From a virus: a stretch of DNA of 64,000 bases. The stretch spans positions 62,001 through 126,000 of the IMG/VR virus record IMGVR_UViG_3300019458_000020. One strand, given 5' to 3'. A program made the position numbers and the translations under genes. Positions 26,680-47,539 of the stretch are shown here, piece by piece. The notes below the pieces were generated by a model. It saw only the letters and a list, made by a program, of their open reading frames with translations. It made no database searches and was not told the origin of the DNA. Positions within the stretch are counted from its first letter, which is position 1, and each line of letters opens with the position of its first letter.

Positions 26680-28395
26680 TTAGACTTGGTCCAAATCAGC
26701 AATCAACACACGGCCATAAAATTCCGGCCTTACCATCTTCTTGGCATAACGTGTCATTACGCCCCGGCGGGGAGTAAAGTTCACCGGGTCATAGACCAAC
26801 GGCGTTTGCACCAATGGAATATAAGGAGCGTAAACAGCACCAGTTTCGAGGAAGTTATTTCCACGGAAACCGACGAGGATTACGTTATCCGTCATGTATG
26901 GGTTCTTGTAAACTTGGAATCGGGACGCGAACGTTCCGACACGGCTTACACCCATTGCGAACTTGGCTTGGTCGCCATCCGTGCTGACCACGTATCCAGG
27001 GATGGATTCGAGAATCGTAGCAACGTCTGGGGAACAAACGAGGAAGTTAGCACCACCACGAAGAGTCAATTGGTGAATCCTGTTGGATACCTTTTGAATC
27101 TTGTTACCGAGGGTTTGATACCAAGTTGACTTGGTGTAGTAACCACCGGTTCCAGCAGTCGTTTGATCAACAGCTTGGAAGGTACCACCGACACGAACGA
27201 TTTCACGGTTGAGGCGTGCGCTCCAACGTTCAGTCGTTACAGCTGGTGCATTCGTCAATAGCATGTCGAGGATTTCGAGGTCGATTTCCATCGAGACGTA
27301 TTCAGACAATAATGCAGTCAATTCTGCTTCTGCGTCGATGCTGTGGTAAGCATTCAAGTCTTGAGCGAGCTCAGGGGTCCAAGCAGCTTTCAACTTACGA
27401 GTCTTAGCAACGATAGGTTCGCTCTTGAGTTCGAGGTTGACTTCAGGAATACCGATGTCTTTGTTAAGACCAGTATCCGTAGCAGTCGTCGAAGCACCAA
27501 GATTGTCTTCAAAGTCGCCACGAGCATTATCACGAGGTTGTACCGAGTAGGTGATAGCAAGACCACCGACTGAACCTGTCGTTGAGAATGGGTTCGTTGT
27601 GGTCGAGGCCGATACAACGAATACAACTTCCGAACCGTTAACTTTCGTCAAGGCTGGGAACCAGGTTCCAATGCTTGAACCAGAAACGGTGAACGAGCGA
27701 ACACCGTTAAGATCGATTGGATTACCAGCAGCCAACGATGCCGAGTAAAGGTTTGTGGTAGTAATCTTGTAAAGATGACCAGCAGCCAACGATGCCGAAA
27801 TGACTACCATTTCAGGTGAGGCGTTACCAGTATTCCAGTTGATATCTTCGGCCGAAGCAGAAGCTACCGTGCTGGAGACGCTAGGAGCACCCTTGTCGTT
27901 GATAGAATATCCGAAGCGACCAGCGCCATAAAGACCGCCGGTTGCCGAATCAGTAGAACCGAGCTTGGTGCCCGTACCACCGAACAACGAAGAATAGACA
28001 GAACCACCGAGCGAGCCCGTGGTATCTCTCTGGAACAAACCTTGGGTCGTACCATACTTGAAGTCCAAGTAGAATACCAATCCGGAAGGAAGGTTCATAG
28101 GTTGAACGGAGACGAACTCCTTAGCAGCGAATTCTGCGAATACACGACGAACGAGTGGGAGAGCTACGCCTGCCCATTGTTCGCTGTTTGCCGAAGTACC
28201 AGTGTTGGTAACTTCATCAATGAGTTGCTTTGCTTGGTTTTCAAGCAAAACAGCCATGTTCGACTTTTCAATGTCGTTTTTCAATCCATCGAGAAGACCG
28301 GTTTTGTCCCAACGGGTCACAAGACCACGGGTTTCTTGCATCAGTCTAGCTTGTGGATTGAGAGTATTGGTTAACAGTTGTTTAACGTTTTCCAT
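26680..28395 (-). CDS. 23: Major capsid protein, T4 gp23-like
   Basis: This 571-residue protein has the gp23 landmarks FVSVQPMNLPSGLVFYLDF at about 93-111 and VYAPYIPLVQTPL at about 521-533, followed by TRYAKK. The gp23 family forms the HK97-fold hexamers of the head. A processing site KQLIDEVTN fits the gp21 rule (cut after Glu 61), which would remove an N-terminal helix of 61 residues, much as T4 cuts after FLTE. Base composition is visibly richer in G/C than most neighbours, in keeping with high expression. The scaffold gene lies directly upstream and a terminator downstream. Confidence 0.95.
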   Translation of the reverse strand: MENVKQLLTNTLNPQARLMQETRGLVTRWDKTGLLDGLKNDIEKSNMAVLLENQAKQLIDEVTNTGTSANSEQWAGVALPLVRRVFAEFAAKEFVSVQPMNLPSGLVFYLDFKYGTTQGLFQRDTTGSLGGSVYSSLFGGTGTKLGSTDSATGGLYGAGRFGYSINDKGAPSVSSTVASASAEDINWNTGNASPEMVVISASLAAGHLYKITTTNLYSASLAAGNPIDLNGVRSFTVSGSSIGTWFPALTKVNGSEVVFVVSASTTTNPFSTTGSVGGLAITYSVQPRDNARGDFEDNLGASTTATDTGLNKDIGIPEVNLELKSEPIVAKTRKLKAAWTPELAQDLNAYHSIDAEAELTALLSEYVSMEIDLEILDMLLTNAPAVTTERWSARLNREIVRVGGTFQAVDQTTAGTGGYYTKSTWYQTLGNKIQKVSNRIHQLTLRGGANFLVCSPDVATILESIPGYVVSTDGDQAKFAMGVSRVGTFASRFQVYKNPYMTDNVILVGFRGNNFLETGAVYAPYIPLVQTPLVYDPVNFTPRRGVMTRYAKKMVRPEFYGRVLIADLDQV

Positions 28396-33357: not shown

Positions 33358-33876
33358 TTACAAATTTGTGGTTTGGATATAATTCCTTGTGGCCATTAAA
33401 ATTTTTCCTAATTTGTTCTTACCAATTTCCTTACAAACACCCCAATAAACATCGCCCCAAGAATTTGTTTCTTCGAGATATTTATCTTCGGTTTCTAACA
33501 AAAGAAATTTAAGGTCCAGATTATTGGTGAACTTTTGAAATACGACCTGAGCCATTACAGTATCTTTTACTTTTGACCACATTTCATCATTGAAAAGAGT
33601 TGGGTAGGATTTTATAATTTCATCAGCCAACTTCTTAGATTCACTAGCAGTAATATCAATAAATTCCTTATGATATTTTTTTGGAAATTTTGCTGCTTGA
33701 TAAGCATGTTCGGTAGAAGGAAATAACGTTCCCAACCAAAATGTTCCGATTTTGGTTGGATAAAAATTAGAAAGGAATCGGTTTCTACCAAAGAATCCAC
33801 AAATGGCATAATCGGTCACTGATGCATATTTAGGGATGGTCGTTTCGTCGGTTTCAACATTTACATGATACTTCAT
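33358..33876 (-). CDS. NADAR-domain protein (YbiA-like)
   Basis: This 172-residue protein shows the NADAR signature: FLSNFYP, LFPSTEHAYQAAKF, a helix with ITASESKKLAD, then SWGDVYWGVCKEIGKNKLGK and MATRNYI. NADAR enzymes are N-glycosidases. Known members cut ribityl-uracil intermediates, and phage or defence-linked members remove ADP-ribose from guanine. With several ADP-ribosyltransferase-like proteins in this genome, a role in reversing or resisting ADP-ribosylation is attractive, but the substrate is not shown by sequence. It lies in an accessory-gene run. Confidence 0.85.
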   Translation of the reverse strand: MKYHVNVETDETTIPKYASVTDYAICGFFGRNRFLSNFYPTKIGTFWLGTLFPSTEHAYQAAKFPKKYHKEFIDITASESKKLADEIIKSYPTLFNDEMWSKVKDTVMAQVVFQKFTNNLDLKFLLLETEDKYLEETNSWGDVYWGVCKEIGKNKLGKILMATRNYIQTTNL

Positions 33877-34379: not shown

Positions 34380-34544
34380 TTAATTTTCTAAAGCCCTCGA
34401 CTTCGATTTTAATTTTTGATATCTCTTGTAGAGAGATAGATATTCCTTTGCAAGATATTCTACACCATAATATATTTCCAGATCTCTTTTTTGGAACATC
34501 TCCAACATCTCCTTTAATTCATCTCTTTGGTCTTGATTTATCAT
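34380..34544 (-). CDS. Small helical protein, 54 residues
   Basis: ATG at 34544 (overlapping the previous stop as ATGA) to TAA at 34380 encodes MINQDQRDELKEMLEMFQKR ... KEYLSLYKRYQKLKSKSRAL, a charged helix or coiled coil. Tight overlap with the nucleotidyltransferase gene supports it being translated. Function unknown. Confidence 0.55.
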   Translation of the reverse strand: MINQDQRDELKEMLEMFQKRDLEIYYGVEYLAKEYLSLYKRYQKLKSKSRALEN

Positions 34545-35662
34545 AACTGAGCATACTTCTCGTAGAGTCGATGATATAAAGCATTTAGCTTTTCAAAATC
34601 CACCGAACGAGGAATTTTTGTTGTCTTGTAGGCTTCATCCATTTTGGATTGAATATTCTTAGCGTGAGTCATTACCTTTTCATAATCCCAACCACCGTTT
34701 TTAATGTGTAAGATTTCTTCAGCATCAGGACGCTTAACGATGACTTTTCCTTCTGTAAGAATTTCATATCCCATTCTCATGAGACGAACCAAATGTGAGG
34801 CGTGTTTCGTATCATATCCACTCTTTACTTCGAGTTTATGACGGTCAACATTACGATTCTTTTTCCAGTTCAACCAAGAACTATATTGTTCTTTAGCCTT
34901 CTTATATTGACGTTCACGATTAAGCAAATCAACGACTTCATCCTTTAAGTCATATTCTTTTGCCAATCTATCAACTACGGCAGCCTCATAGGCTCCTGGC
35001 CAATTATCCCAACCAACATGTAATTGAGAAACATTATCCACCAATTCCCAAATGGTTTCTTTTAGTTCACTTCGTTCCATTTCTTCCATTGGAAACTTGG
35101 ACAAATTCCACCGTTCAACTTCACTCTTGATGAAGCCAAATACTTCATCTAGTTGACGAGCACGAACATCGGGAAGACCATACTCTGAACGAGTAGGTTC
35201 CTTTAATTCACCCAAAACAATCCACTTACGATGACGTTCAATTTTGGCAGCCTGTGACATAGCATATCCTGAAAATGTATATTTGGCTTTGGAACTAAGA
35301 AATAAATCTCTATTTTCCATTAAAGAAACAATGGCAGGCTTGAAAATCAAATGATCTTGTGGTTCAGTCCATAACAATTCAATGATATTTGGATTAACGT
35401 TTGCAGCCAATACCATGAATTTTTTAAGTGAATAAATAACCGATTCGAATTTTGGATTGTTTGGATTTTTATATAATTCCCATTGATTTTCCACATCGAT
35501 ATTATTTTCAGCTTGTTCAAATTTATGAAATAAATTATACTCTACACTCTTAGGTGGAATAACAATACCTTTTACATCGCAATCTGACAGTTCATTTGAA
35601 AGTCCGTAACATCGGCTTCCATGAAGAGTCAAATAAATTGTATTTTTTGTTAACCATTCCAT
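34541..35662 (-). CDS. Nucleotidyltransferase-fold protein
   Basis: The 373 residues begin with YLTLHGSRCYGLSNELSDCD, then VKGIVIP: the GS(x)-x(7-9)-D-x-D motif of a nucleotidyltransferase with the second acid in SDCD. A helix-rich C-terminal part follows (YDTKHASHLVRLMRMGYEIL). This type of phage protein (DUF4269/YcgL-like group) is thought to add nucleotides to RNA or proteins, or to be a toxin/antitoxin-type AMP/CMP transferase. The substrate is not deducible. The endonuclease gene upstream overlaps its first 13 bases. Confidence 0.75.
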   Translation of the reverse strand: MEWLTKNTIYLTLHGSRCYGLSNELSDCDVKGIVIPPKSVEYNLFHKFEQAENNIDVENQWELYKNPNNPKFESVIYSLKKFMVLAANVNPNIIELLWTEPQDHLIFKPAIVSLMENRDLFLSSKAKYTFSGYAMSQAAKIERHRKWIVLGELKEPTRSEYGLPDVRARQLDEVFGFIKSEVERWNLSKFPMEEMERSELKETIWELVDNVSQLHVGWDNWPGAYEAAVVDRLAKEYDLKDEVVDLLNRERQYKKAKEQYSSWLNWKKNRNVDRHKLEVKSGYDTKHASHLVRLMRMGYEILTEGKVIVKRPDAEEILHIKNGGWDYEKVMTHAKNIQSKMDEAYKTTKIPRSVDFEKLNALYHRLYEKYAQL

Positions 35663-36522
35663 AATATTTTATCTAAATTTTTAAGTTCCTTTTCGGTCAC
35701 AACCATGTATTTATATCCGTTATCATTACAATATTTTCTTCCATTGTCTATTTTTAATTTATTGTTTCCAACACTTAACAATGATTGTGGTTTTATTTCA
35801 ATCACTACCCGTTGATTAATAACAAAATCAGGAAAATAATTTCTATCTTTTCCGGCGCTGTCAATGTAAGATACCACGAAATTTGGTTTTTGTAAAGCAG
35901 TTATTTTATTTGACGACTCACAAAATTTCAAGAACAATTTTTCATACGAACTTTGATAATAAAGTTTGAGATTAAATTTATTACTCACAAACCATCCAGT
36001 TTCACAATTGGAATAGGGATGATGATTACCATTTAACATTGATTTTATTACGTTTTGTACATTTCTTTTACACAACTTTTCGTATTGAATTGGATCTTTG
36101 CATTTTTCTTTCCAAGATTCGGATAGTCTTTGAGAATATCTCCGTCTATTTTTTGGGTCTTTATTTAACCATTTAACTAATGGATTTTTATCCCCAGTAA
36201 AATCAGCATGATTGACTGACATTTTCTTTCTTGTTTTTTGAGTGTGAGTTTTTCCGAAGAATGGATTTCTTTCTCCAGAATTCATTTTCTGATATTGTTT
36301 TTTTCTTTCTTTTGTAAACTCATATCCTTTCATCCATTTTCCACAACCTGACCGTTTACATGATTTCGATACAATATTTTTAATTGAATCCAAAACAAGT
36401 GTGGTATTTGGATACTTACTAAGAAATTCTTTAGTAGAAAGTTTATGTTTGAAATGAATATGAGAATTCAACGTTTGAAATTGATTCTGACAGATTGGAC
36501 AGACTAAAAGCTCTTTTTTCAT
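35650..36522 (-). CDS. Homing endonuclease: zinc finger, NUMOD3, PD-(D/E)xK-like domain
   Basis: In this 290-residue protein, residues 5-40 form a C2H2-type finger (LVCPICQNQFQTLNSHIHFK). Residues 85-130 include NPFFGKTHTQKTRKKMSVNH (NUMOD3). The C-terminal domain has NYFPDFVINQRVVIEIKPQ, a D...ExK nuclease core like that of other phage free-standing endonucleases. It overlaps the start of the nucleotidyltransferase gene by 13 bases, which suggests its insertion at that gene's 5' end. CTTATAAATATATAAG (36526-36541), an inverted repeat, lies just upstream. Confidence 0.85.
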   Translation of the reverse strand: MKKELLVCPICQNQFQTLNSHIHFKHKLSTKEFLSKYPNTTLVLDSIKNIVSKSCKRSGCGKWMKGYEFTKERKKQYQKMNSGERNPFFGKTHTQKTRKKMSVNHADFTGDKNPLVKWLNKDPKNRRRYSQRLSESWKEKCKDPIQYEKLCKRNVQNVIKSMLNGNHHPYSNCETGWFVSNKFNLKLYYQSSYEKLFLKFCESSNKITALQKPNFVVSYIDSAGKDRNYFPDFVINQRVVIEIKPQSLLSVGNNKLKIDNGRKYCNDNGYKYMVVTEKELKNLDKILWNG

Positions 36523-36829: not shown

Positions 36830-37222
36830 TCAAACTTTGTTGGTGAGTAGAAACCAAATAGAAGATACCCAATCCATCGCCCACTTTTTAAATCGTTGCC
36901 AACATGTCGGTTTGATTTTAACAAAATCCATATAAAACGTATTGGCCGAAGGTTCATTCATTGGCTGACACGATATCAAATCAGTGATGTGTAAGTTTTC
37001 TGGTATATTTTTTATTATAGGAAAAATAAACGATTCAAGTTTTCTTAATTTTCTTTTAACGAATAGTCTTTTAAACCATCGTTTAATTCTCTGCCAACGT
37101 GTGAGTGGTTTAGGAACATCAATGATACACTGGGGAGTAATATACAATGGTATATAGGGAGCATACACAACAATCTTATGTTTTGTTGATTCCGGTCTAT
37201 TCATGTACCAATAAAAACTCAT
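36830..37222 (-). CDS. Capsid-peptide look-alike protein with twin basic helices
   Basis: This 130-residue protein contains VVYAPYIPLYITP (18-30) and CQPMNEPSANTFYMDF (85-100). The phage's own major capsid protein contains AVYAPYIPLVQTP (520-532) and VQPMNLPSGLVFYLDF (97-112), in the opposite order. Each segment is followed by a similar basic amphipathic stretch, KPLTRWQRIKRWFKRLF (38-54) and KPTCWQRFKKWAMDW (104-118), so the protein seems to be an internal duplication of peptide plus helix. The C-terminus is hydrophobic (WVSSIWFLL). It could be a decoy for capsid-sensing defences, a capsid-binding or membrane peptide, or a relic. It sits in the accessory operon, away from head genes. Confidence 0.7.
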   Translation of the reverse strand: MSFYWYMNRPESTKHKIVVYAPYIPLYITPQCIIDVPKPLTRWQRIKRWFKRLFVKRKLRKLESFIFPIIKNIPENLHITDLISCQPMNEPSANTFYMDFVKIKPTCWQRFKKWAMDWVSSIWFLLTNKV

Positions 37223-37224
37223 AA

Positions 37225-37749
37225 TTATTTTATCTCTTCAAACGGCTTATCACAAAGTAAATCAACAAATCTCATTATTCTTTTATAAACATCATCATCC
37301 TTGGTGAAATTCCACTTTTTAGTTGCAGAATCATCGATCCATTCTTTCAAAGATGTACCAAATTCTTCGCTCCGCGATTTGATATCACATACAAATTCAG
37401 CAAGATATACTTCAGGCATATCATTTATACCTCCTGACCAATTTTCCGGATGATGTGGATTAGTAGAATTGTGCTGTTGTATCGCAAGTTTAAGTTTCAT
37501 TTTTGCACCATCGGCGTCAGCATCAATACCGGGAGACATAAACTCAAATTCAATTCCGTGAAATTTACTTGCGTCATGAACGAATCCATTCGCGATAAGT
37601 TGCTTTCCCAACTCAATTTCACCAGACATTATCAATTTCTCTCCTAATAAAAGACAATTATCTTCTACATTTCTAATATGTCTAGTGATACCACGTATTT
37701 TTTCCATAGTTGCGGTAGCATCCCTTTTAAGTTTCTCGGATTTTTTCAT
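37225..37749 (-). CDS. DUF5662-like protein with His/Asp cluster
   Basis: The 174 residues include VHDASKFHGIEFEFMSPG and AIQQHNSTNPHHPENW, an H-D ... H-x(3-4)-HH pattern that recalls HD-type metal sites and the DUF5662 family of phages. A C-terminal helix pair follows (SLKEWIDDSATKKWNF). A metal-dependent hydrolase is likely in fold, but the substrate is unknown. A near-consensus host promoter lies just upstream (37765-37792), so it is probably transcribed early together with the capsid look-alike and following genes. Confidence 0.65.
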   Translation of the reverse strand: MKKSEKLKRDATATMEKIRGITRHIRNVEDNCLLLGEKLIMSGEIELGKQLIANGFVHDASKFHGIEFEFMSPGIDADADGAKMKLKLAIQQHNSTNPHHPENWSGGINDMPEVYLAEFVCDIKSRSEEFGTSLKEWIDDSATKKWNFTKDDDVYKRIMRFVDLLCDKPFEEIK

Positions 37750-38689: not shown

Positions 38690-39388
38690 ATGAAATTTAA
38701 AAGAAATTGTCCTAAATGTAAAGTTCCTATTTTTTACAATAGAAAAGACTCCTTACAACGAGCCATCAATCAGAAACGGATGTGTTTTAATTGTAATACT
38801 CCTAAAGGAAATAAACATTATCGATTTGGAAAACATTGCAGTCAAGAAATTAAAGATAAAATACGTAAAACTAAGATGGGTGTGCCGATTCATACTATAG
38901 AAGAAAAGGAGAAACGAAGACTTCTTTGGTGTGGAGATAAAAATCCTAATGTAAAATATGGTCCATCATTTTTAGGAAGACATCATACAGAAGAAACTAA
39001 AGAGAAGATGAGAATTTCTTATGTTAAAACAGTCATAAAAAATGGTGGGAGAAATCCAAGATTCAATTTAAATGCAATAAACTATTTTAAAAAGTTGGAA
39101 TTGGAATTTAATTGGAATGGAATTTATGCCACTAAAAATTCGGAATATTTCATCGAAAGTTTGGGATATTTTGTTGATTATTATGAACCCCATTTAAATA
39201 TTGTAGTAGAATATGATGAACCTAGACATTATTATGCAAATGGAACTTTAAAACAGAAAGATATTAAAAGAATGGAAAAAATAATATCTAAAATTGATTG
39301 TAAATTTTATAGATATGATGAGAAAAGAAATCTACTTAAAGAATATTTCATTGATTCGGGTGTATTCGTTCCCACTTTACACCACTGA
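38690..39388 (+). CDS. Homing endonuclease with NUMOD3 and PD-(D/E)xK-like domain
   Basis: In this 232-residue protein an N-terminal Cys4 finger (NCPKCKVPI ... MCFNCNTPKG) is followed by NUMOD3-like units (GPSFLGRHHTEETKEKM) and a nuclease core near 165-200 (GYFVDYYEPHLNIVVEYDEP, then HYYANGTLKQKD), typical of DUF559-like phage endonucleases. GAGG seven bases before ATG is a good ribosome site. It overlaps convergently with the end of the GMP-reductase-like gene by 41 bases, which is unusual for a conserved enzyme gene. Confidence 0.85.
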   Translation: MKFKRNCPKCKVPIFYNRKDSLQRAINQKRMCFNCNTPKGNKHYRFGKHCSQEIKDKIRKTKMGVPIHTIEEKEKRRLLWCGDKNPNVKYGPSFLGRHHTEETKEKMRISYVKTVIKNGGRNPRFNLNAINYFKKLELEFNWNGIYATKNSEYFIESLGYFVDYYEPHLNIVVEYDEPRHYYANGTLKQKDIKRMEKIISKIDCKFYRYDEKRNLLKEYFIDSGVFVPTLHH

Positions 39389-40295
39389 AAGCAGAAAGGT
39401 CTGTACCTCCGGAATATGATATTGCACTTTGCAATGATTCTTGAATTTCACGAAGACGTTCGTGATAAGTAAACCCCTCTTCGAGAGCCAATGTTCTGCC
39501 TTCAATGTGTTTGTGTTCTCCCTTCGAATCAAACGATGTTGATCCACGATAAATCTTTTTTCCATTTTCTATTTTTGCTGGAGAATCTATACAAGATGCG
39601 AACCATCCACCTGACATAACCATCGTCGCTCCAAACGTCAAAGCTTTAGCAATATCTCCAAAGTGTCTTGCTCCACCATCAGCAATAATAGGAATATTTA
39701 ATCCTGCTGATGCTGCTTCATACACCGAATGAAGTGTTGGTAAATGGAATCCAGTTTTAAACCGCGTTGTACAAATACTTCCGCCACCTATACCAACTTT
39801 TACGGCATCGGCTCCACACTCACATAAAAATTTATATCCATCAGCAGTTGCTACATTTCCAAGTATAAGTTTTGATGTGGGCGTCATTTTTTTAATGAAA
39901 TTTACCATCTCTTCTGTTTTCTTATGATGTCCGTGGGCGACATCAATGGTAATAAAATCCGGAATACCAATAGTAAGAAGAGCGTGTAAATCTTCTTTTG
40001 AATCATCATTTACACCCAAACTGATACTTTTTAAAGTAATATCTCGTTCCCTAGCATGCAACATGAAATTTGTTGGAGCATCATTAAATCGATGCATAAT
40101 ATAAAAACACCCAAGTTTATCCAATAATTGTGCATTATCAAATGATATAACATCTTCCATATTCGCGGGAATAACCGGAACTTTGAAGGTCTTACCCAAG
40201 AACTCAACCCTTGTGTCAGCTTTTGACCGAGAGGGTAATTCAGAATACTTAGGACGCAAACATACAGTATTATAGGAAAATAAAAAATCACTCAT
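39348..40295 (-). CDS. IMP dehydrogenase/GMP reductase family enzyme
   Basis: ATG at 40295 gives 315 residues, close to GMP reductase and without the CBS domains of IMP dehydrogenase. Core motifs are PVIPANMEDVISF, FITIDVAHGHHKKT, LILGNVATADGYKF, VGIGGGSICTTRFKTGFHLP with the catalytic Cys loop, and IIADGGARHFGDIAKAL, with a YRGSTSF segment later. GMP reductase turns GMP to IMP with NADPH; IMP dehydrogenase does the reverse branch. In a phage it could adjust guanine nucleotides or supply a precursor. Which direction it works in cannot be decided by eye. Confidence 0.85.
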   Translation of the reverse strand: MSDFLFSYNTVCLRPKYSELPSRSKADTRVEFLGKTFKVPVIPANMEDVISFDNAQLLDKLGCFYIMHRFNDAPTNFMLHARERDITLKSISLGVNDDSKEDLHALLTIGIPDFITIDVAHGHHKKTEEMVNFIKKMTPTSKLILGNVATADGYKFLCECGADAVKVGIGGGSICTTRFKTGFHLPTLHSVYEAASAGLNIPIIADGGARHFGDIAKALTFGATMVMSGGWFASCIDSPAKIENGKKIYRGSTSFDSKGEHKHIEGRTLALEEGFTYHERLREIQESLQSAISYSGGTDLSAFSGVKWERIHPNQ

Positions 40296-40342
40296 AACCA
40301 ATCAACGTAACCTATCGTATCCTTCAGGTAAACTAATTTTAA

Positions 40343-44419: not shown

Positions 44420-47400
44420 TTACTCGTCAATTATATTACTTTCATCCATTAATGATGGTGTATTTTCGGTTTCTTTAATTAACTCCTTCTTTTCCTTGAC
44501 TGCTCTTTTTCCAGAAAGATGTGTATCCAAAGATTTTATAATTTGTTGATTCATTACGAATTTTGCGGATTTCGGAAGGACATTTTCTAAATTTAATGGA
44601 GAAGTCTTGTTCCGAAGAGATTTCAACTTCTTTTGTTTTTCTATTTCTAATTTTAATGCAGAATTCATTTCCAAGGTGCCTCTTGGGTCTTCGCCGAATC
44701 TAAAATCTCGTCTGGCATTTTTTACTCCCTTTTGGGATGGTCGTTCATAATCCTCTGCGTGTTCTCCATGACCCTCCTTTACATCTTCCGATTCTGTTAG
44801 ACCGGTATCCTTTCCAGCCGGTTCACCCAGAGCCGCTGCTAAATCAGCTTCATCTCCTTCACCACCCGGACCTCCCTCGTCGCCCATATCTGGCCCTCCA
44901 CCTAAATCCGGTCCTCCGCCGGGCCCGCCTTCATCACCACCTGGCTCTCCGCCAGGTCCACCCTCTGGATTAATTTTATTAAATGGTTTTGCTGGGTCAT
45001 TACCATCTTCTTCTATTTGCTTTATTCTCCAAGCTTGGATAGCGTCTTCTATAACCGCCTTCGCAATTTCATCGGTATCATCATCCGAAAGATTGAAAAT
45101 ATTTTTATAAATCCAAGATTTAGAAAATAATTTAGCTTCCATCATGTTCGATGCAACATCAACCTTATTACCCCACAATTCGATTTTCTCCTTTTCAAAG
45201 ATTGTGGATGGGTTGGTTAGTTCTAATCTAAAGTTAACTAATTTTTCATCTCTATATCCCTGTGAATAAAGATGAAGAATAGAAATTTTTTCCAATTCTG
45301 ATACGATAATTCCTTGAATTCTTTGAATTGTCTTTGCGAAACGAATATCTTCGGAAGCCAAGGTGGCTTTTCCGGATAATTCGTCTTCATAACCCAAAAA
45401 TGCTTTAGGAATTTTTAAAGCAGCCATCATCTTATTTCTAAGATATTCAATATCTTCAATTCCTGTGAATTCCATTCCACCCAACGTATCAATAGAGGAT
45501 CCACTATCACTTCCACGAACAGGTAGATAAAAATCTTCTACCATGTTTTGAAGATTGAATCGAAGGTTATAATCTCCGGTTTGTGGGTCTAAATAAGGGA
45601 CTTTCTTCATTTTGGAGATTACTTTTTCCATGTATGCATCTACTTCTCCGGGTGGAATATTTCCTACATCCATCTTAAAAATACGTTTTTCAGGAGCACG
45701 CATGATTCTGTGAATCAACATAGCGTCTTCCATCAAACTTAATTGTTTCCAAATACGTCGAGCACTTTCTATCATAGATTTTCCATAAGGAAGAAAATTA
45801 GAATCAGAAATTAATCGAAAGTGTGCCAATTCAAAAGACTCCAAAGTTTCTACAGCAGAAGTATCGGTAGGACGAATTTGAAACTTTACGTAGTTTTTAT
45901 TCATCGGGTCGGAATTTTCAATTCGTTCTACATTATATGCAGAAACAGGCTCGATTTGATAAACACCGTATTCTGGAGAGATATAAGTTCTAAGATAGAA
46001 ATCTCCGTATTTACATAAATTTCTTGTCCAAGACCAAAGATTAAATTCAATATTAAGAATATCATAATGAAGATTATGAAGCACTTCTTTTATATTATCA
46101 TCTTCAGTATGAACGGTAAGAATTTTACCCATTTCATTTTTTGTAACACATTCATCAGCGTAAATATCTAAAGCAGAGGCTAATATGGGGTCCATATCCA
46201 TTGTATTTGAAACAAAACAACTATCTGTAGAAAAGTTTTTATACTTCTCTACAGTTACATCATAAACATCAACTTCACCAATACTTTCAATGGATACTAT
46301 TTTATGGTTTAAAGTTGATTCTACTTCTTGCTTAAAAGATTTCCAGTCATGACCTTCTTTTTTCAGACGGTTTTGAAGAGTAGAATGATCACATCGAATA
46401 TGTTTAATAAAATCCCATAGATTTATCTTGGAGTTTTCTTTGTAGAATTCCAACGCTTTTTCTTTTACATTAGAAAAGGTTATATCTCCACGATATTTTG
46501 GATTACGTTCTTCCGTTTGATTTCTATCCTTGAACACTTCTTTAAGAGTTTCAGAACGAGTTTTATTTGATTTTTCAGAATGGGTTTTTCCAAAAAAAGG
46601 ATTATTTTCACCAACTCGTTCTCCATCCCAATGATGAAATTTACGGTTAATATAGTTTGGGTGCGATTTTAATTTATTGAGTTGATTTTCATAATTTTCA
46701 TCCCCCCACAATATATTTTTACTATAATTAGAATGAAATTGTATATGTTCATCCTTCGTCATTATTTGTAAATTGTCGGGGGAATTATCATAACCGTTGA
46801 AGTTTTTATGATGAACCACTTCGTTGTCATTCAATGATCGGTCAAATTGTTCCGCAACTACAACGTGTTCAGATTGCCAACCTTTAGAAAAGTTATACAG
46901 TTTTTTATATTTATTATATTTACAGTTATAATCCTTTTGATAGAAAGGCATCACAGAATCGCCTACACGAAGTTCATATATCATTTTATACGAACCATCT
47001 CGCATCATAAACGGATGTTTCAAACTTCCAACGACATACTGTCCGTTATCAAATATTACCTTGTAACCAATGCGTTTACCTTTTTTCTTTCTAGGATGAT
47101 ACGCTTTACCTAATTTAATAGAATCTGTTTCGTGGTCATAGGAAAATACATAAAACCGTTCTTGTGGTTTATCTTTATATTTTTCAGCAAGTTCTGATAT
47201 TGTTGGTCGAGAACCATCTGGCAACGGAATGATGGTATCTGGACCGACACAATCGTAATCCCTGAACAAATCGATGCGAGCAGCTTGATAAGATAAAGCA
47301 AAATCTCTTGTATATGCATTATACGCAGTAGAACGGACACGATTGAATCTATCTCGAAGGCTGTTTCTATCTGTTGCGTATCCTAACTGACTGGTATCCT

Positions 47401-47539
47401 TTACTTTTAATTTTTTTCCACCTACGTTACGAACTACCGCACCAGAGGATAAAAGTCTTTTTAATCTAGCATACAGCGACTTTTGCTTTACATCTATTTC
47501 GTCTTCGTTTCCGAATGGTTTTAAGTTATTTACCGGCAT
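44420..47539 (-). CDS. 20: Portal protein, T4 gp20-like, interrupted by an intein
   Basis: The 1039 codons contain about 690 residues of portal and a 349-residue intein. The extein shows gp20 family sequence: TMDMDPILASALDIYADECV, NIEFNLWSWTRNLCKYGDFY, LIHRIMRAPEKRIFKMDVGN, and MMAALKIPKAFLGYEDELSG. A Gly/Pro/Asp-rich linker (near residue 880-935) and a charged C-terminus are longer than in T4 gp20. The portal forms the dodecameric DNA gate and the start point for head assembly. Without splicing, the intein would disrupt the protein near residue 96. Confidence 0.9.
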   Translation of the reverse strand: MPVNNLKPFGNEDEIDVKQKSLYARLKRLLSSGAVVRNVGGKKLKVKDTSQLGYATDRNSLRDRFNRVRSTAYNAYTRDFALSYQAARIDLFRDYDCVGPDTIIPLPDGSRPTISELAEKYKDKPQERFYVFSYDHETDSIKLGKAYHPRKKKGKRIGYKVIFDNGQYVVGSLKHPFMMRDGSYKMIYELRVGDSVMPFYQKDYNCKYNKYKKLYNFSKGWQSEHVVVAEQFDRSLNDNEVVHHKNFNGYDNSPDNLQIMTKDEHIQFHSNYSKNILWGDENYENQLNKLKSHPNYINRKFHHWDGERVGENNPFFGKTHSEKSNKTRSETLKEVFKDRNQTEERNPKYRGDITFSNVKEKALEFYKENSKINLWDFIKHIRCDHSTLQNRLKKEGHDWKSFKQEVESTLNHKIVSIESIGEVDVYDVTVEKYKNFSTDSCFVSNTMDMDPILASALDIYADECVTKNEMGKILTVHTEDDNIKEVLHNLHYDILNIEFNLWSWTRNLCKYGDFYLRTYISPEYGVYQIEPVSAYNVERIENSDPMNKNYVKFQIRPTDTSAVETLESFELAHFRLISDSNFLPYGKSMIESARRIWKQLSLMEDAMLIHRIMRAPEKRIFKMDVGNIPPGEVDAYMEKVISKMKKVPYLDPQTGDYNLRFNLQNMVEDFYLPVRGSDSGSSIDTLGGMEFTGIEDIEYLRNKMMAALKIPKAFLGYEDELSGKATLASEDIRFAKTIQRIQGIIVSELEKISILHLYSQGYRDEKLVNFRLELTNPSTIFEKEKIELWGNKVDVASNMMEAKLFSKSWIYKNIFNLSDDDTDEIAKAVIEDAIQAWRIKQIEEDGNDPAKPFNKINPEGGPGGEPGGDEGGPGGGPDLGGGPDMGDEGGPGGEGDEADLAAALGEPAGKDTGLTESEDVKEGHGEHAEDYERPSQKGVKNARRDFRFGEDPRGTLEMNSALKLEIEKQKKLKSLRNKTSPLNLENVLPKSAKFVMNQQIIKSLDTHLSGKRAVKEKKELIKETENTPSLMDESNIIDE
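46205..47251 (-). mobile_element. Intein with HNH homing endonuclease in the portal gene
   Basis: Residues 97-445 of the portal frame. Block A is CVGPDTIIPLPDG (Cys 1), block B is GSLKHPFMMRDG, block F is DVYDVTVEKYKNF and block G is CFVSN followed by Thr (+1). The last residue is Asn, but Ser stands where the penultimate His is usual. The centre has EVVHHKNFNGYDNSPDNLQI (HNH nuclease) and NNPFFGKTHSEK (NUMOD3). It interrupts RDYD / TMDMDP, a conserved portal site. Splicing by Cys1-Asn-Thr(+1) chemistry is expected. Confidence 0.9.

Follow-up and report, generated by a model that had tools for sequence, protein, structure and literature searches.

The window analysed here, a 64,000-nucleotide stretch of the 250,813-bp IMG/VR record G000, carries a gene for a 130-residue protein in which two isolated segments are, by sequence comparison, homologous to conserved elements of the major capsid protein Gp23. 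The protein belongs to a recurring class of small accessory proteins, each apparently built around one or two isolated conserved Gp23 elements, and it is in this class that the newness of the observation would lie; the decoy mechanism considered below is a proposal. Capsid proteins trigger several bacterial immune systems directly, and the capsid-segment class is therefore a candidate for counter-defence. We know of no capsid-mimicking counter-defence, and a limited literature search, with most subscription papers outside its scope, returned nothing relevant on a Gp23 paralogue of this kind or on a phage capsid decoy. The features of the window that bear on this protein are collected in Table 1.

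Table 1. Capsid-segment gene, capsid gene and neighbouring genes in the window.
Feature	Position	Strand	Evidence or remark
Capsid-segment small protein, 130 aa	36830..37222	−	Segment C, then segment A; Trp/basic stretch after each
Segment C peptide VYAPYIPLYITP, residues 19–30	37133..37168	−	10/12 identity to capsid 521–532; segment-C profile E = 1.1e-3
First WQRIKRW basic stretch, residues 42–59	37046..37099	−	Net charge +9
Segment A, residues 65–102, Gol-region homologue	36917..37030	−	Pfam Gp23 E = 3.9e-4; segment-A profile E = 2.3e-8
Second WQRFKKW stretch, residues 107–124	36851..36904	−	Similar Trp/basic tails in G004 and G012 proteins
Major capsid protein Gp23, 571 aa	26680..28395	−	Pfam Gp23 E = 1.3e-76
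Capsid gene segments	A 28060–28158, B 27247–27426, C 26734–26886	−	Segment profiles
DUF5662 gene, directly upstream of the capsid-segment gene	37225..37749	−	PF18907 E = 1.2e-20
IMPDH/GMP-reductase-like gene, flanks the locus	39348..40301	−	Read from sequence, not family search; synteny
RlaP-type nucleotidyltransferase, bounds the locus	34541..35662	−	PF10127 E = 3.7e-14; synteny
TnsA/NUMOD3 endonuclease-like gene	35650..36522	−	PF08722, PF07460; also at the L086 locus

Coding of the window ORF is supported by its codon score, which was the best of the six frames (−0.009 in its own frame and −0.17 to −0.60 in the five others), and by its start, an ATG that follows the DUF5662 stop codon by 2 nt and has GAAGAGAT upstream. 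The two WQR(I/F)K(R/K)W stretches, described in the earlier note as basic and amphipathic, are real and are basic and aromatic in composition, but their helical amphipathicity showed no excess over shuffled versions (P = 0.38 and 0.07). Structure prediction for the protein gave pLDDT values of 42 and 46, too low to be informative, with a helix at residues 42–53 in a low-confidence model.

The earlier note had described two Gp23 peptides in reversed order and had held a chance match to be unlikely, and both statements were borne out. The second peptide proved longer than first described, since residues 68–100 align with capsid residues 80–112 with 12/33 identical and 19/33 positive (BLASTP E = 4e-6). 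Residues 65–102 match positions 7–44 of the PF07068 model at 20.4 bits, a match that covers 38 of 376 model positions and does not reach the curated cut-off of 24.4 bits. The segment profile E-values of Table 1 were obtained in searches of the whole record, and the profiles for segments B and D, which lie in the central part of the capsid, found no match in the window ORF. When 20,000 composition-preserving shuffles of the window protein were compared with the capsid of the same phage, the A half had a probability of ~3e-7 by a Gumbel fit and the C half one of 6e-5 to 1e-4, and in none of the shuffles were both halves matched together. Longer S/T-rich ORFs of the window also reached equally high raw local scores, and the profile searches are for this reason the better evidence.

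At the DNA level, no likeness of the segments to the capsid gene was found, with only 28/48 and 28/54 bases in agreement. The idea that the peptides track the phage's own capsid did not hold, as this capsid ranked 79th among 97 capsid segments in similarity to segment A of the window protein. Because the DNA is dissimilar and segment A is not closest to its own capsid, the window ORF is not a recent capsid copy, and a recent DNA duplication of the capsid gene was ruled out.

Isolated Gp23 segments A, B or C (spanning about positions 3–49, 125–193 and 296–342 of the Gp23 model, respectively) recur across T4-type phages in small ORFs that are distinct from the capsid gene. These ORFs were found through a scan of IMG/VR for the peptide YAPYIPLY, a Gp23 scan of whole records and the segment profiles; some of the segment matches are short, and E-values are given per genome. 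Segment A is carried by the window protein, by proteins of G004 (115 aa), G012 (115 aa), L100 (93 aa) and G040 (174 aa), by XacN1 ORF261, by a 259-aa protein of Aeromonas phage Ahp1 and by members of PHROG 12830. Segment B is found in proteins of G000 (109 aa), G012 (83 aa) and L100 (84 aa) and in XacN1 ORF451 (74 aa), and segment C in the RR-leader proteins of L085/L086/L101, L110 and L108, in proteins of LR756511 (100 aa) and G010 (173 aa), and in the window protein. Two such ORFs occur together in the phage studied here, where the segment-B protein lies outside the window, and in Xanthomonas phage XacN1, and further ones are present in jumbo relatives, among them G004 and G012. The 93-aa protein of L100 has A followed by C, which is the native capsid order. 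Since most of these records also contain intact or split capsid genes, the capsid-segment ORFs are additional genes; a full capsid gene was not found in the L085, L100 and L101 records, which are short contigs. The window protein is likewise encoded by a separate small ORF with isolated Gp23 segments in a genome with an intact capsid gene.

The homologue search proposed in the earlier note yielded one homologue, the G004 protein, which was the only further relative returned by pattern and alignment searches, together with many analogous proteins. The joint presence of two capsid landmarks, to which that note had drawn attention, stood in so far as both are Gp23-derived, but the combination does not stand alone, because related phages have C-type and A-type proteins as separate entities. 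The window protein is best understood as a fusion in which a C-type protein, at the customary locus of that type, is joined to an A-type protein of the kind found in G004 and G012. The G004 and G012 proteins also consist of segment A and then a Trp/basic tail, and the G004 protein has F.FPIIKN.P in common with the window protein, but both are without segment C and are encoded beside DNA polymerase or RNase H rather than DUF5662; the G004 and L100 members adjoin the DNA polymerase gene. The RR-leader segment-C proteins (L110, L086, L108) share with the window protein the locus beside DUF5662 and IMPDH and the peptide YAPYIPLY.T, whereas their N termini resemble a twin-arginine leader (with a TAT_signal match at only E = 0.09) and segment A is absent from them. 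Compared with the Gp23 capsid protein (PF07068/phrog_138), to which segments A and C are homologous by profile, the window protein has 130 residues instead of about 400–570, is missing most of the capsid, has the segments in reversed order and scores below the family cut-off.

Several candidates were set aside. The first IMG/VR scan with tblastn gave a single relative of the whole window protein, L001, which matched over 17 residues in the WQRIKRWF-like C terminus of an unrelated protein and was taken as convergence. A reading of XacN1 ORF261 as a terminase–capsid fusion was dropped, the terminase match having only E = 0.07. An L143 protein with FPIIKNMP and VQPIMAPTE pieces had no Gp23 match in Pfam and was left out of the count; this NADAR-domain protein (768–1562, +; Pfam E = 1.7e-40) has FPIIKNMP near its N terminus and LVGVQPIMAPTE 80 residues on, and resembles a split segment A. 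Also outside the count, and taken as gp24-like or capsid-like, were W18:99901 (323 aa), L126 (343 aa) and frames of 392–439 aa. In the G040 record (L125, L126), several unrelated ORFs were seen to have a common C-terminal KRK[LI][RK][IV]-like tag that may serve in sorting.

The specificity of the recurrence was examined with control segment D, a piece from the middle of the capsid. At E ≤ 1e-3, the non-capsid ORFs in 62 records numbered 15 for segment A (eight of which come from records picked for having segment A), four for B, seven for C and none for D. All four profiles give comparable scores for full-length capsids; the mean column identity of segment D is 49%, compared with 59–61% for the others, and its lower conservation makes it somewhat weaker as a probe. 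Among 32 of the records, no portal (PF07230) fragment was found at E ≤ 1e-3 (best 1.15e-3), and the terminase search (PF03237) returned two ambiguous pieces, frames of 307 aa (2e-11) and 199 aa (2e-6), which may represent a paralogue and a split gene. It follows from the segment D, portal and terminase controls that segment capture is biased to the Gp23 elements A, B and C, and the same controls argue against general gene fragmentation in these genomes.

Among 48 records, a capsid-segment ORF was located within about 1.5 kb of a DUF5662 gene at seven of 17 loci (six independent, the window included). These linked genes are of type C, B or C plus A; most are adjacent to DUF5662, several with a gap of 1–2 nt, and most C-type members were located via the YAPYIPLY peptide, independently of DUF5662. 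In G005 (L110/L169), G033 (L086) and G046 (L108), an IMPDH-like gene is followed by the RR-leader/segment-C gene and this in turn, directly or two genes on, by DUF5662. Segment B is present in the gene immediately before DUF5662 in G012, and C plus A in the gene immediately after it in the window. A nucleotidyltransferase gene comes next at most of these loci, and the window gene conforms to the arrangement, lying beside DUF5662 with the IMPDH-like gene and the RlaP nucleotidyltransferase on either side. A NADAR-like gene fills the slot immediately before DUF5662 in other relatives (L258, L260, L262), a slot that is occupied in other phages by the capsid-segment gene, and the window has a NADAR-like gene at 33358–33876 (−), about 3 kb downstream of the capsid-segment gene.

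Gol is a 29-residue region of gp23 with a 20-residue core that binds EF-Tu domains II/III and activates Lit, and it shows the highest conservation within gp23 (PMC3014915). The connection to Gol made in the earlier note was upheld, since segment A of the window protein is homologous to this region in an alignment around T4 QPM 115–117 and keeps N105, L106, D110, Q115, P116, M117, N118 and P120 (T4 gp23 numbering). Gol itself lies within the capsid protein and activates Lit; the likeness of the window segment to it is one of sequence. In T4 gp23, the Gol region presumably spans residues 93–121.

The best-studied subset of the class, PHROG 12830, consists of proteins of about 128 aa that are labelled ‘major head protein’ in Aeromonas, Citrobacter and Vibrio phages and are conserved across these three host genera. 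Its members (CPT_Merlin284, Aeh1p187) resemble the window protein in being small, separate from gp23 and possessed of a segment A with the Gol core, but they have an N-terminal domain of their own (MS.PS.A.F...NCGW), are without segment C or Trp/basic stretches and lose the strand after QPM; the window protein had no match to phrog_12830 and lacks this domain. Over the 19 residues up to QPM, the Gol core, identity to T4 is 60% in PHROG 12830 and 59% in real capsids, whereas over the next 16 residues it is 21% compared with 47%, the strand being lost. The window protein, unlike PHROG 12830, retains more of this strand (FYMDF), and the Gol argument is therefore weaker for it. The Citrobacter phage Merlin gene CPT_Merlin284 lies between motA and asiA in an early operon, four genes from an ‘inhibitor of McrBC restriction’, and the members of Aeromonas phages Aeh1, Ah1 and avDM12, Vibrio phage D479 and Citrobacter phage Ci1 lie in tRNA arrays. 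In NC_028857 (163737–164123), NC_005260 (109698–110120) and the other PHROG 12830 records, only about 35 residues are in common with gp23. The ‘major head protein’ label on these proteins is very probably wrong, and an annotation correction is in order for the Aeromonas, Citrobacter and Vibrio phages concerned.

Segments A, B and C are what we take to be the P-domain and E-loop base of the HK97 fold, A presumably being the N-terminal helix and strand (Gol region), B the E-loop end with the spine helix, and C a P-domain strand. The explanation ranked first, albeit tentatively, is that the capsid-segment proteins are decoys or antagonists of capsid-sensing immunity. They would bind what the capsid binds and could thus occupy host sensors or factors for the capsid protein without triggering them, and the window protein may use its Trp/basic stretches as an anchor to membrane or nucleic acid. 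A decoy role is favoured because Lit, CapRel and Thoeris all respond directly to capsid proteins, the Lit/EF-Tu response via Gol being the one precedent for segment A; because PHROG 12830 preserves the sensor-binding core; and because one of its genes, that of Merlin, sits in an early anti-host region. The recurrence specific to A, B and C, with none for D or portal, also counts for it, as do the positions of other members in tRNA arrays or beside the DNA polymerase gene. Counted against it are that a sensor is known for segment A alone, with no explanation found for B and C; that a capsid-derived peptide could equally trigger a sensor; that the A segment of the window protein shows no special likeness to the capsid of its own phage; that the window gene and those of C type are located among head genes and not in an early operon; and that the window protein retains the FYMDF strand lost in PHROG 12830. 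A broader version, in which an unrecognised class of T4-type and jumbo phage proteins with one Gp23 element each would serve as decoys against capsid-sensing immunity, the window protein being a two-element and PHROG 12830 a Gol-bearing form, is possible and is offered with greater reserve.

A capsid-binding function is a rather unlikely alternative, in which the P-domain elements would pair with Gp23 subunits by strand or helix swapping and so control folding or assembly, mask epitopes on the phage's own capsid, or poison the capsids of competitors, as truncated Gag does in Ty1. It would fit the recurrence of A, B and C but not D, the position of the window and C-type genes among head genes, a B-like frame of Aeh1 that adjoins gene 31 (for the Gp23 co-chaperone), and the fact that the window A segment is nearer to other phages' capsids than to its own, which would spare the own capsid; it fits poorly with PHROG 12830, whose genes are in early or tRNA regions and whose products have lost the strand that would pair with the capsid. 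That the ORFs are non-functional relics, capsid fragments taken in by illegitimate recombination and now drifting, is improbable given that key residues are kept despite no DNA similarity to the capsid gene, that PHROG 12830 is conserved in phages of three host genera, that segment D and portal gave no such fragments and that the DUF5662 locus recurs. Relics would nevertheless account for segments that are fused to diverse unrelated sequences and differ among relatives at one locus, and for an own-frame codon score of the window ORF that is weaker than its neighbour's.

Less probable again is a ligand of EF-Tu or chaperones, with A binding EF-Tu and B and C other folding factors so as to steer translation or capsid folding, immunity being a side issue. 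The binding of Gol, the most conserved gp23 region, to EF-Tu domains II/III (PMC3014915) and the preservation of exactly this core by PHROG 12830 are consistent with such a ligand, but the B- and C-type proteins would be left unexplained. The lowest rating was given to a partner or regulator of the neighbouring DUF5662 enzyme, which the capsid segment would time or localise; the linkage at seven of 17 loci speaks for it, while the other ten DUF5662 loci have no capsid-segment gene and many capsid-segment genes (PHROG 12830, XacN1, G004) are not near DUF5662.

Two further observations were made. In Aeromonas phages Aeh1 (W17; 181757–181918, −), avDM12 (W24; 97292–97459, +) and Ah1 (W19; near 168257), a segment-B-like frame of 54–56 codons, KAKPRKLTARWTLDVENIETEFGDDCVKQLIESIQKEI, runs in frame straight after a TGA stop (that of rIII in Aeh1) in the vicinity of gene 31. 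Its protein sequence is conserved between phages; the frame has no annotation in Aeh1 and lacks an ATG, GTG or TTG start, and stop-codon readthrough or a non-canonical start is possible. In the window, the portal ORF (44420–47539, −; 1039 aa) contains an apparent in-frame intein with an HNH-like motif, extending from ~CVGPDT to ~FVSNT as judged by eye only.
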